Assembly (NCBI GenBank): GCA_017629515.1
Contig: JAGBXB010000020.1
Coordinates: forward strand, 1-64,000
Length of the DNA stretch: 64,000 nt
DNA from: Lentisphaeria bacterium
Lineage (GTDB): Bacteria > Verrucomicrobiota > Lentisphaeria > Victivallales > UBA1829
Direction: 5' to 3'
Shown: positions 50,244-56,898 of the stretch, in pieces
Numbering within the stretch: position 1 is the stretch's first letter
Layout of the letters: each line of letters begins with the position of its first letter
Made by a program: the position numbers and the translations under genes
The notes under the pieces: model-generated
Databases searched by the model: none
What the model saw: only the letters and a program-made list of their open reading frames with translations
Told to the model about the DNA's origin: nothing

Positions 50244-52571
50244 ATGTTGAAGATCTGTGTGGAGGAGAAAGCTCTTTTCCTTGTTCCTGCGGCGGAAGCA
50301 TTTGTGGAAATGTGGGAAAAGGTGACAGGAAAAACTCTTGAGATCATCAGAAAAGATGATGGAACAAGCAATCTTATTGTTTTCGGCAGTGATGCTGTCT
50401 CTGCTTTCACCCATGAAAAAGTTCTCAATAAAATCCTTCCTGAATTGAAAACGAGGGTGGGGACAGATGATTATGAGATCCTTTCTGCAAAAGAAAAAGG
50501 GAGAAATTTCCTCATTCTTGCAGGGGGCTGTGTCCGGGCATATTTTTATGCTGTTTACCACTTTTTTGAGGTAGCTGCCTCCTGCCGTTATTTCTGGGAT
50601 ACGGATATCATACCGGAAAAAGAAAATATCTATCTGGAAAACTGGTATATTTACGAAAAACCCCGTTTCACCTACCGGGGGCTGCGGTATTTTGCCCACC
50701 GGGGATTGCACCGGTTCCAGGCGGAACATTGGGAGTGGGAGGATTGGAAAAAGGAAATAGATTATCTTCTGAAAAAAAGATTCAATCTTTTCATGTTGCG
50801 TATCGGTTTTGATGATCTTTTCCAGAAAGCCTTTCCCCAATGGGTTTCTTATCCTGAAGATTTCAAGTTTGAGGGAGGAAAAGAGAGAAGTTACGATGAT
50901 CATACTCTTTTCATGCCTTTACAGGAGCGTGGTGCATTGCGTAAAAAGATCCTTTCCTATGCTTTTGAACGGGGCTTGATCCATCCGGAGGATATTGGAA
51001 CCATGACCCATTGGTACAGCAGGACACCTATGGATTTTATCCGTAATGCTGCTCCGGAATATCTGCCCAGAGCTTCCGGGGATTATTACAGCGACCCCAC
51101 CGGGCAGGTGTGGGATATAAGGAATGAAAAAGAACTGGATTATTATTTTGCCCTTACCGAAGCACATATAAAAGAATACGGGAAAGAAAGCGGCCCCGAA
51201 CTCTTCCATACCATCGGTCTTGCGGAACGGCATTGCTTTGATGATGAAGAAGCAAGTCACAGGATGAAGTTATATACTTACCGGTGCTTTACAAGAAAAT
51301 TGCGGGAAAAATATCCCACCATCCCCCTGATGCTTGCCGCCTGGGAGTTCCTGGACTGGACACCTCAACAGGTGAAGGAACTTCTTGCCTCCCTTGATCC
51401 GGAACATACTCTGGTACTGGATTATACCGCCGATATCCAGGATGAAAAGAACTATTTTGTTTCCTGGGATATACCGGGAAAATTTCCCTATATTTTCGGG
51501 ATCTTCCATTCCAACGAAAACAATTCCGAGATCCGTGGAAATTATCCCCTCATTGAAGAACGCCTTGCCCTTGCCGCAAAAGACCCCATGTGCAAAGGGA
51601 TGGTATTGTGGCCGGAAACAAGTCACGCCGATACCCTGATGCTGGAATATGTGGCAAACAATTCCTGGAAGCCGGAAAATATTTCCATTGATACATTCCT
51701 GGAAAAATTCTGTAAAGACCGGTACATATTTCCCGGTGGAGATCTGGAAGAAAGCATGTTGACGATATGGCGGAAATTCCTGCCCTCTGTCAAAGGGCGC
51801 ATCCGTCATGCTTTCGGTCATAAAAAAGGTCTTGCCCCGGTATATTATATAAGGATACTGGAAATTTGCGCTATTGATAAGTTCCTTCTTTATGAAAGAG
51901 GGTATAATACTCTGGAAAAATTTGCAGACTCTCTGCGTGAATTTCCTGAACTCTTCCGGAGCCTCGCCCTTCTTTCGGAAAAAGAACTTTCCAATCATGT
52001 CAGAAGAGATATGCTGGATATTGCAAAAAGTTCTTTTGCCACCCTTCTGGATTGTTTCATGGCAAAGATCTTTACTTTGCTGAAAGATTTTGAAGAGAAT
52101 AAAGAAAAGGAAAAAACGGCAGTTTACCTGCGGGAAAATCTGGAATATTTACAGCAATGCAATCTTCTTCTGGCAGAGTGCCTTGCTTCTTCAAAGGAAT
52201 TTTCTCTTTATGAGGCTCTTCTGCAAATGACCGGCAAAGAGGGGAGAAACAAAGATTTTGAATATACTTTGAAAGGTAATGCGGAAAACTCTTACAGCAG
52301 ATCTTATATTCCGGAGATCCTTGTATATTGTGCAGCTCCGGAACTTGCTCTTTTTGCCCGATATATTGAAAAAGGACTTTCTGACAATACTTCCAACTGG
52401 GAGTTTCCTGCGGAATTCCGGAATCAGCGGGAAGCGGTGAAAGACCGTTTCTATAAAACAGCGTTGAAAGATATGGCGCCGGATCAGGAAAAAGCGGAAA
52501 AAGAATTGCCCGGCAATCTGCGGAAAGCGGCGATGTTATCTGAAAAACTTTGTGAAATAATAGGAAAGTAA
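50244..52571 (+). CDS. GH89-like (alpha-N-acetylglucosaminidase-type) enzyme
   Basis: 775 residues without a signal peptide. The N-terminal 130 residues form an alpha/beta domain like the first domain of NAGLU or GH67/GH20 enzymes. The barrel begins at 142 (FTYRGLRYF) with [25 protein letters not shown], matching the W..W..EIDWMALNGINL stretch of GH89. Glu458 in [25 protein letters not shown] aligns by eye with the nucleophile of NAGLU (GTGMAPEG...MAELGW), and Glu328 (GLAERHCF) with the acid/base. A long helical C-terminal domain follows, also as in GH89. The alignment is from memory and distant; the substrate is probably an alpha-linked amino sugar such as in glycosaminoglycans or mucin. Confidence 0.7.
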
Positions 52572-52602: not shown

Positions 52603-53349
52603 ATGAAAAAACATTTCACCCTCATCGAATTACTTGTTGTAATTGCCATCATCGCAATTCTTGCCGGGATGCTGTTGCCCGCACTGAACAAAGCAAGAGA
52701 AAAAGCCTACGGGATCAACTGTATCAGCAATCTCAAACAGATCGGGATCGCCATGAGCAATTACACCAATGACAGCAAGGAATTTTTCCCCACATGGAAA
52801 CACAACAATAATACGGAAATGACAGCCAATGACCGTAACCAGAAATGGGATAAACTCCTTACCTGCATGAAGCTCATCAACGGAAAAAACTTCCGGGATG
52901 CCGCGATGAAAACGGAAACTTCCTCCCAGATCCGGGAAGAAACTCTCCTGAACGGCAATAAATTACTTGTACCCAACCGCGGTGCTTACGGCTATAACTA
53001 CATGAATATCGGTTCAAGCAGAACGGTCAACTCAAGTGACAGTAAAAAATCTGCCAGACTTTCCGAACTGAAAAAGTTCAGTGTCTGCTATGTGGTGGCG
53101 GATACTTTCCATTTCGGCGCAACAGGTCAGACTGGATATTATGACCTCTGGCACAACTATGATGCTGCTGTTGAGTACCGTCCGGACGCCCGTCACAGCA
53201 AAATGGTCAATATCCTTTTTGCCGATATGCACGCCGGTTCCATCAAAGCCAATCCTGTCAACCCCTATCACCAGATGAAAGATAACAACAAGTCCAGTAA
53301 AATCTACAACTGCTGGACAGGCGGAAGATTCGGTGGCGAGATCGACTGA
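52603..53349 (+). CDS. Type II secretion/prepilin-like protein (DUF1559-like)
   Basis: 248 residues. The N-terminus [20 protein letters not shown] is a class III prepilin signal, with His instead of Gly before the cleavage site. Then [31 protein letters not shown] leads into a C-terminal domain ending [17 protein letters not shown], corresponding to the H-x9-DG domain with DMH for DGH. Lentisphaerota and Planctomycetota encode many such pseudopilins next to glycosidases. AAGGAGACG precedes the start. Confidence 0.93.
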
Positions 53350-53369: not shown

Positions 53370-53897
53370 ATGATAAAAAAATCCAATCTTTGTTTTCTCT
53401 TTTTCTGCCTGTTCTGTTGCCTTTTATCCGCAATGAGTGTTTTTTCTGCGGAAAAGGGAAATATGGCTTCTGCCGATCCTTCCTTTGACAGGAAAACAAA
53501 ATTCTGGTATATACCCAAACCCCAGGGGTATACTTTTTTTGAGAAGGATAGCGAAAAAGGCAATATCCTTCTTATTTCCAATACGGAAAGTTTTCCCGTA
53601 AAAAGAGGCGGGCTTTACCGGAAAAATTTCATCCCTGTTGAAGCAGGAAAAACCTATACTTTTGAAGCAGATTTCAAAGGGGAACTTTCCGAAGGTTACG
53701 CTTCCATCCTGTTAAGTATTTTCGGTGAAAAAAAAGGCAAACAAGCCTATCTCAAAAGTTTTGAAAGTTCCCGGATAAGCCATACCCGGGGCGAATGGGT
53801 GCGTATCAGCATGACTTTTACCATTCCGGAAGGGGGTAAAAAAAGTACATTACGGACTTTTTGCAAGAAATTTCTGCGGAAAAGCCATGTTCGATAA
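53370..53897 (+). pseudogene. N-terminal part of a frameshifted secreted glycosidase-like gene
   Basis: 175 residues: a Sec signal peptide (KKSNLCFLFFCLFCCLLSAMSVFSA) and a carbohydrate-binding-like beta-sandwich (GGLYRKNFIPVEAGKTYTFEADFKG...RGEWVRISMTFTIPEGGKK). After GGKK the frame runs into STLRTFCKKFLRKSHVR and stops. Reading one base later, the sequence is KKVHYGLFARNFCGKAMFDNVNMFEG, the natural end of the sandwich domain, and continues into the next frame. The break is at seven A (53838-53844); six A would restore one open frame. AAGGAG precedes the start. Either a mutation, a phase-variable site, transcriptional slippage or a sequence error. Confidence 0.8.
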
Positions 53898-56800
53898 TGT
53901 CAATATGTTTGAAGGCGATTCCTATACTCTCCCTCTTGTGAAAAAAGGGCTTGCCCTTGACGGGAAATGGGATGACTCTTTTGTGGAAAATGCCTTGAAG
54001 ATACAGGATTTCAATGCTTACCCTGTAAAAGATAATACTCCTGCACCGGAAAAAACAGTCATCTATCTGGCGAGAACCAATGATACCATATATGGTCAGG
54101 CCCTTCTCTGCCACGCTCCCGGAAAAGTCCTCCGGGCGGAAGCCGGTAAAAGGGACGGAGCATTATGGGCGGATGACAGTCTGGAATTTTTTATTACTCT
54201 CACCAATGCGGCACGGCCTTTCTACCACTTTATGTTCAATATACAGGGCGACGTATACGACGCATTGGAAAGCAACAAAAAATGGGATTCCTCTTTCCGG
54301 GCAAAGGGCGGCAGAAAAGATGAAAAAAGTCATTTCATCCAGTTTGCCCTGCCATTGAAAGAAATCGGCTTCGATGCGGAATTGGATGCCCATTTGCATA
54401 AATTATCCTGGAAGATCAATTTTACAAGAAATCATCCGGGAATGACTCCCCGTTATTCCACATTCGCCCCGGTGGTGGTTTTCCGTGATCCCGCTTCCTT
54501 TATTTCTGTAACAAGTCCCGGTACCGCCGGAAATAAAGAAGTTTGGGGCAGATACCGGAACAAAGGGGCGGCAGACTCCAAAAATATCCGTCAGCAGAAG
54601 ATGTGGAAGATCAAAAATCCCCTTTACAGGGAACTTTTTTCCAAAAAGGAAAATCCATTCAAAGGGGAAAGTGCCTTTATCTGGCCCAGACCCATTGAAG
54701 AAAAATCCAATGCCGCTTTTGCTCTCCAATACGGTATGGAATACTCTATAAAAAATATCCTCGGGGAGTATGAGAAACACCGTCTGCATCCATACAGTTC
54801 CGGTGATTTCCCCTTTTTATCTTCTTTCGGTAAAAAATCCGGCGTGGGATTTATGCAGTATGCTCCTTACTATATGCAGAATTTTTCCTATATCTATAAT
54901 CCCGCCACCCGGGAAGCCTTTATGAAAAGTATCCGGGAAACTCTGGATAAATACTCTTCCGGCATGTGGGGCGTCACCATTGGAGATGAAGCCTTTTCCC
55001 AGACTGTCCGCAGGATCGTCACCAGAGGAAACAATAAAAAGATCCTGGAATCCGATCCCGCTTTGAAAAATGCTCTGGAAGAGGTGAAAACAAAATACGG
55101 TTACGGAAAATATTGTCTGCCGGAAACTCTTTCCGCAGAGGCTCCCTTTGACTGGATAGCTTTGCGGAAATGGTTTTTTGATCAGCTCCTTCCCATTCAG
55201 AAAGAACTTTTTGCTCTGGCAAAGAAATATAAGGGCAGCAACGGCAAACCTTTAACAATTGTTTCCCATGACCATGTGGACTGGGCGATCATGCAGCAGA
55301 TAAGCAGGTTTGCCCCCTACGTGGATATTATGACCGCCCAGAGCGTTCCCATGAACGACCCCACAAGGCAGAATCTTGCTTTCCGGGCAAAATTGCTGAA
55401 AGATCTTTCTTCTAAAAGTGTCTGGCTGTGCGTTCACCTTGAACCCTATAACGGTCATTATACAGCTTCTGAAACTGCTGCACTTTTAAGTGAGGCTGCC
55501 CGGGGCGGAAATTCCGGTTTGCAGATCTGGAATTATGATTTTATCGCCGACCAGCAGGGGATGGGGTCTTCCCGGTTTGATTATTATGGACACCGCCCCA
55601 GATGGGATGCTATGATGGATGTGGTGGCGAGAATGCAGAAAGACCCGCTTCTCCAATTCCCCAAAGAAGATTTTGCCATTCTTCTTTCCGATACAAGTGC
55701 TTTCGCCCGTCCGAAAATGTATATGCCCCAATATGAAAGTATTTTCAATCTTGCCGGGCCCGGGGCGGAAACTGCTTTCAAATTCATCACCGATACCCAG
55801 TTGCTGGATAAGGTGGAAAAACTGGAAAACTGGAAATTTGTCCTTATCCCCAAAATGGATTATATTGAGGCGGAACTTATTCCCCTTTTCCGTAAATATG
55901 TGGAAAATGGCGGGATTCTCCTTTGTTATGACTCTTCCTTTATGCAATTCGATCCTTCCGGAAAAAGCCATGCAAAGGAAAGGGAGGAGTTGTTCGGGGT
56001 AAAAAATATCCCTGCAAAAAATGTTACAGGGCTCTCTTTTACAAATGCTTCCCCCTTTAAGAATTTGCACAATAAGCCGCCTGCAGCTCTTGCGGAAACT
56101 TTTCATGCCCTCCAGGTTCTGGATAAAGATACCGTTGTGTGGGCAAAATATCAGAATGGTCAGACTGCTATGAGTATGAAAAAATATGCCAATGGCGGTA
56201 TGGCGATCATGTGCAGTATGGATCTGCAGCTTTATTTGAGCGCCAATAAAAAATGGCATACCACTTTCAAAGATATCCTTACCACATTCGGGGCTGTATC
56301 CGGTCAGAAGATCTGGCGTTTCCAGTATCCTTCCATTGCAGAAAAAGAACCTGTATTCAAAGATAAATGCCTTACCGGAAATCATTTCTATTTCTGGAAC
56401 AATACCGTTACCGCTCCTGCCAATGTGCGGCTTCCCGGAGCGTATTATACAGTGAATATCGCACCCGACGGGGAGAAAGAGAATGAAAAAAAATATTCCT
56501 TTATTGATGGCAGACTTACCAACCGCCTGAAAGCCCCTGCCGCCGGAGATATGTTCAATCTGAAAAAGAATAAAGAGAAGATCCGTTCCGGCAAACTGCA
56601 TAAAGGATTGTTTGCGGATACATGGTCAAAGAAAGATCCTTTGAAGATCGTTTTCCATTTCGGTAAAGAAGTGAAAATCAATAAGGTGGTACTTTTCTAT
56701 AACGGGGAACTGCCCGGTATGAAAGGAGTCATCAATGGAAAAGAATATTCTGTCAGGGGCGGAACGACCGGAACTTTTGAGGTAAGGAAAGTTGTTCTGG

Positions 56801-56898
56801 ATGTTCCGGAAACAATAGCAGAATCTTTTACTGTTGAGATTCCTGAAAGAACACAGAAAGCTCTTACGGTAAGTGAAGTGGAAATCTGGGGAAAATAA
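53844..56898 (+). pseudogene. C-terminal part of the frameshifted secreted glycosidase-like gene
   Basis: The first ATG in this frame is at 53887 (1003 residues), but homologous sequence begins at the A7 run, and there is no separate ribosome binding site or signal peptide. Domains: end of the binding sandwich, a CBM9-like domain (about 15-200, LDGKWDDSF, WADDSLEFFIT), then a barrel resembling GH42-type enzymes. Candidate catalytic residues are the Glu of TIGDEAFSQ and of CVHLEPYNGH. After it come a Rossmann-like beta-galactosidase trimerisation-type domain (ENGGILLCYDSSFM) and a C-terminal discoidin-like sandwich (FTVEIPERTQKALTVSEVEIWGK). With the N-terminal part the protein would be about 1175 residues and secreted. 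Confidence 0.78.

Follow-up and report, generated by a model that had tools for sequence, protein, structure and literature searches.

How does a large glycosidase gene come to be divided between two reading frames beside a run of seven adenines, and does that run control the enzyme? The gene lies in what we call the window, the whole 64,000-nucleotide stretch of Lentisphaeria DNA that was analyzed. The initial annotation suggested that the homopolymer might permit phase variation or transcriptional slippage, so that secreted enzyme would be made in only part of the population. If such switching were true, it would imply a division of labor in polysaccharide use.

A single gene broken by one base

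The coordinates, the two frames, and the seven adenines first reported all hold (Table 1). The frames overlap by 11 nt and are offset by one base (53887 - 53370 = 517, which is 1 modulo 3). The upstream frame indeed supplies a signal-like sequence and most of a binding domain, as revealed by a Pfam match of ORF1 to CBM_4_9 (E 4.6e-8; profile positions 29-129 of 136). The claim that the downstream frame completes this domain and encodes the enzyme was likewise borne out, both by homology and by a GH42-like structural model described below. In BLAST alignments, the homology of ORF1 to relatives runs to 'PEG', and homology in the frame of ORF2 starts at 'KGVKKVHYGLFARNF'; the final ~16-20 residues of ORF1 lie outside the ancestral frame. 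No internal stop was found across the 1003 codons of ORF2, and the ribosome-binding context at its ATG (53887) appeared weak by eye.

Table 1. Features of the split glycosidase gene and its neighbors, in window coordinates
Feature	Position	Strand	Description
NAGLU (alpha-N-acetylglucosaminidase-like) neighbor	50244..52571	+	Synteny with G004
DUF1559-type pseudopilin neighbor	52603..53349	+	Synteny with G004 and G001
ORF1, 175 aa	53370..53897	+	N-terminus resembling a signal peptide (by eye); most of CBM_4_9
Frame-break site	53832..53844	+	G5 (53832-53836), T, A7 (53838-53844)
Downstream open frame, 1027 aa	53815..56898	+	CBM4/9 end, CBM9-like, GH42-like barrel, trimerisation-type domain, C-terminal beta domain
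ORF2, 1003 aa from first in-frame ATG	53887..56898	+	Secretion signal absent (by eye)

A scan of genome contigs with ORF2 alone returned no relatives, and the same kind of scan with alignment A1 returned nine loci. Altogether 13 loci were inspected, representing 12 distinct genes, and both halves were present at the threshold used in eight of these loci, or seven genes. All seven of these distinct relatives carry the two halves in a single open frame of 1161-1383 aa. The relatives that carry names come from metagenome-assembled genomes (MAGs) recorded as Lentisphaeria, Lentisphaerae, or Victivallales, several of which are of ruminant-gut origin. Because both halves share one frame in the seven relatives, ORF1 and ORF2 are a single gene interrupted by a one-base difference. 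The break is thus confirmed as genuine in the sequence as assembled, and it falls inside one gene.

The gene order of the window (NAGLU-like, pseudopilin, glycosidase) recurs in the relative G004, with protein identities of 52-53% for NAGLU and pilin, 50% for ORF2, and 43% for the ORF1 part. Within the same genus, G001 yielded only a 63-base match, its contig ending just inside the gene, and no match to the glycosidase gene was found in G002.

A putative multi-domain GH42-like glycosidase

All Pfam matches of ORF2, to the GH42 trimerisation domain and to CBM9_2, were below the cut-off; Glyco_hydro_42M scored 18.6 bits, where the cut-off is 25.8. An NCBIfam search yielded no useful name for ORF2. 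An AlphaFold2 model built from a 10-sequence alignment (mean pLDDT 79.2, pTM 0.70) proved to be GH42-like in fold. Among its best solved fold matches were the GH42 beta-galactosidases 5dfa and 8ibt (E 5.2e-16 and 9.0e-16), with TM scores by target length of 0.54-0.56, yet with large rmsd (18.2 and 8.3). Separate, partial fold matches were obtained to CBM9 (7nwn) and to a CBM32 (2v72). A profile search against PDB sequences retrieved two chains only, 5dfa and 4oif, both named beta-galactosidase. Taken together, the fold and profile matches point to ORF2 as a multi-domain enzyme with a GH42-like core. Two glutamates, E368 and E519, are unchanged in all 10 sequences, and their putative catalytic role is taken from the family. 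The product of the intact gene would be a secreted, multi-domain GH42-like glycosidase of ~1,170 aa from a gut Lentisphaeria bacterium, as predicted from homology and modeling. The locus outlines such an enzyme beside NAGLU and pseudopilin genes in gut Lentisphaeria.

Domain composition varies around this core. In one relative (L070:1-2761), a lipoprotein-type leader, recognized by eye, is fused directly to the catalytic part, and the CBM4/9 and CBM9-like domains are missing. Elsewhere in the genome that contains the window (L048:1230-4126, minus strand, corresponding to G000:C34), a stand-alone 167-aa CBM4/9-like gene overlaps a DUF4838 gene by 4 nt. Both of these genes have signal-like N-termini by eye, and another pseudopilin gene lies upstream of them.

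The break site and the frequency of homopolymers

The initial annotation regarded A7 as the element that separates the frames. The seven adenines are present, but the G5 run that ends one base upstream of them explains the frames equally well, so that the missing or extra base may belong to either run. Codon log-odds place the flip in preferred frame between the 20-nt bins 53820-53839 and 53840-53859, and the codon-statistics frame signal remains weak up to 53880. A programmed -1 ribosomal frameshift was ruled out by frame arithmetic, the downstream frame being +1.

Comparison of the site in related genomes, one of the checks first suggested, revealed no homopolymer (A/T of at least 6 or G/C of at least 5) within 45 nt of the equivalent position in any of the seven relatives, all of which read through it in a single frame. 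A conserved slippery site was ruled out on the same absence. A search of a plasmid collection and an exact 33-base junction query against viral contigs each gave zero matches, in collections unlikely to contain the species.

Runs of this length are common here. The window contains 64 A/T runs of at least 7, and the same glycosidase gene reads through other such runs in frame (A7 at 53375, T7 at 53534, A8 at 53728, and A8 at 56486). In a sample of 674,967 bases (23% of the genome), intact ORFs of at least 900 nt contain 251 coding-strand A runs of at least 7 (213 A7, 36 A8, and 2 A9), a count that takes in ORF2 of the target itself. A7 is therefore nothing special in this genome. Just 2.0% of the coding positions in that sample are as close as 10 nt to an A/T run of at least 7, and the placement of the lesion thus suggests slippage, either in the cell or in sequencing.

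Sequence constraint and accuracy of the draft

The window protein agrees with its relatives at 79 of the 92 columns that are invariant in six of them, and its 13 departures are the second most of the seven rows; leaving out each other row in turn gave 79/81, 79/81, 79/83, 79/89, 79/90, and 79/150. These departures weigh mildly against full constraint and would be compatible with a mild relaxation of it. With three outgroups, relative-rate counts against G004 were 105 versus 105, 103 versus 87, and 102 versus 86 (chi-square at most 1.4), suggesting no clear acceleration in the window gene. A degraded pseudogene, which would carry several inactivating lesions, was rejected, as the gene has a single break and ORF2 is stop-free.

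The assembly is a 2.9-Mb draft of 147 contigs, 82% complete, with the window on an 85.6-kb contig. A codon-statistics detector of frame breaks, which detected 92 of 104 simulated breaks, flagged 113 changes of frame in 500 coding segments of the sample. Ninety-six were removed by rule, as ordinary gene overlaps or too-short segments and without homology tests, and 17 were kept; 14 of these were judged by eye to be adjacent genes, and three were proven by homology, namely the target, an RNase HIII gene (L030 about 7981, minus strand, corresponding to G000:C38 about 37981), and an MscS-type channel gene (L049 about 14699, minus strand, corresponding to G000:C102 about 14699). Compared with two congeners, the latter two, both housekeeping-type genes, have each lost one base, seen as one-base gaps in the alignment distant from long homopolymers, and their frames are otherwise open. 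For each gene, the two halves hit either portions of a single family or successive domains of a single protein type. Of 12 other genomes, 11 have the RNase HIII part within one frame (320-965 aa) and one gave no match; for the MscS part, the best match falls within one frame (397-454 aa) in seven of 12 other genomes, and five gave no match. The resulting rate of ~4-5 breaks per Mb fits a draft whose accuracy is limited, though such breaks are indistinguishable from real mutations. A frame break in a draft genome that coincides with a homopolymer is weak evidence for regulation when housekeeping-type genes of the same assembly also carry one-base breaks.

Low-coverage assemblies are known to yield spurious frameshifts, and assembly generates many spurious pseudogenes with coverage as a factor, according to an assessment that left MAGs outside its scope (PMC11017572). 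A large frame-break survey expected sequencing errors to underlie singletons that BLAST confirms (PMC3711429).

Origin of the split

The split is probably, though by no means certainly, a consensus error of this fragmentary, metagenome-type assembly. This explanation is favored because all seven relatives retain one frame, ORF2 has no stops, and no acceleration is clear, and because the draft is incomplete and contains two further proven one-base breaks in the sample. A one-base difference within or beside G5-T-A7 breaks the ~1,170-aa glycosidase frame, with consensus error as its likeliest source, and living cells would then probably carry a single intact frame; we infer that the base is an error rather than a mutation. 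Against this stand the possibility that the two control breaks are real mutations and the changes at 13 of 92 invariant columns. Errors in an A7 run should be rare in short-read sequencing, which, if it was used here, counts against a consensus error. Consensus error remains the best reading, and a recent null mutation ranks next. A genuine one-base change that produced a young pseudogene, with only a truncated binding module exported and ORF2 either unsecreted or unmade, is possible but distinctly less probable. G5-T-A7 is a natural place for replication slippage, given how few coding positions lie near such runs, and the changed conserved columns also suit a recent mutation. The absence of stops, the lack of a clear rate increase, and the finding that the intact NAGLU and pilin genes are equally diverged from G004 argue against it.

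The remaining explanations give the split a function, and we consider all of them improbable. Slipped-strand mispairing at G5-T-A7 that toggles the secreted enzyme within the population is unlikely: the homopolymer at the break, the signal-bearing product, and the intact remainder of the gene are what such a switch would present, and a real mixed population would give the same single consensus, but the relatives have no comparable run near the site, A runs of this length abound in intact ORFs, and longer A8 runs stand unbroken in the same gene. It is very unlikely that G5-T-A7 is a contingency locus at which a gut Lentisphaeria population mixes secretors and non-secretors of a GH42-like glycosidase. 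Transcriptional slippage on A7, which would let a fraction of full-length enzyme be made from a 'pseudo pseudogene', is highly improbable despite the A run at the break and known precedents with longer runs (PMC1088944). In a reporter study with E. coli RNA polymerase, slippage was undetectable below seven T or eight A, so that A7 falls under that limit, which may differ in this phylum; mRNA sequencing in the same source gave a 0.39% insertion figure at one A7 (PMC6260861). The run is also absent in relatives. Functional fission into a secreted binding protein (ORF1) and a separate intracellular or coupled enzyme (ORF2) has next to no probability. The 11-nt overlap with an ATG, the stand-alone CBM4/9 gene beside a DUF4838 gene in the same genome, and the relative whose catalytic part lacks CBMs are compatible with it. 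Yet ORF1 finishes out of frame without the end of its domain, homology in the ORF2 frame begins upstream of the ORF2 ATG, the CBM-less relative retains a lipoprotein-type signal that ORF2 does not have (by eye), and the ribosome-binding context at 53887 is weak. Phase variation and transcriptional slippage, as originally proposed, thus found little in their favor given the relatives, the commonness of A7, the E. coli threshold, and the other breaks in the draft, and the on/off switch reading is not supported.

A repeated cassette in prepilin leaders

The pseudopilin gene next to the glycosidase led to a separate observation. Its G001 counterpart (L067:476-1411, G001:C293) contains an extra in-frame segment of ~61 aa in the prepilin leader that the window copy lacks; outside this insert, the two pilin genes are 76% identical. 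The cassette, with copies at L094-L098, L099-L103, and L105, sits between two prepilin-type FTLIELL-like motifs in pseudopilin leaders, and five of the 36 family genomes carry it. The genome of the window itself gave seven protein matches and eight DNA matches, the latter at 76-94% identity, to be compared with the 76% of the pilin pair. Hairpins are predicted, a tandem pair occurs at G001 locus L098, and several copies lie at contig ends. The pattern resembles that of repetitive DNA inserting or recombining in frame inside leader peptides, and the cassette is possibly an in-frame mobile or recombining element. A literature search by title or abstract found nothing on a prepilin leader cassette. 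We regard it as a lead of more interest than the split gene.

Comparison with known systems

The locus resembles homopolymer-based phase variation in having a run at the break and a signal-like sequence on the product, and differs from it in that the tract is short and not conserved and that no variants of its length were observed. In a comparative paper on 'pseudo pseudogenes', conserved A9 runs are taken as a mark of purposeful use, and some frame-broken genes that carry them receive this name (PMC1088944); the target shares with them an A run between two frames of one gene, whereas its run is A7 and its homologues have none. Like the spurious draft frameshifts and singleton breaks described in PMC11017572 and PMC3711429, the break in the target gene, which also comes from a draft genome, is a lone one-base difference that relatives do not share, the remainder of the gene being intact. 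Unlike them, it coincides with a homopolymer stretch, a setting in which genuine slippage is plausible as well, and the former source omitted MAGs. As for the enzyme, ORF2 departs from the GH42 beta-galactosidases (Gan42B, 5dfa/4oif; BiBga42A, 8ibt) in its ~11-12% identity, its scores below the Pfam cut-off, and its extra CBM9-like and C-terminal beta domains, whereas these same enzymes are its best fold matches and their trimerisation domain is recognizable in it as a weak profile match.
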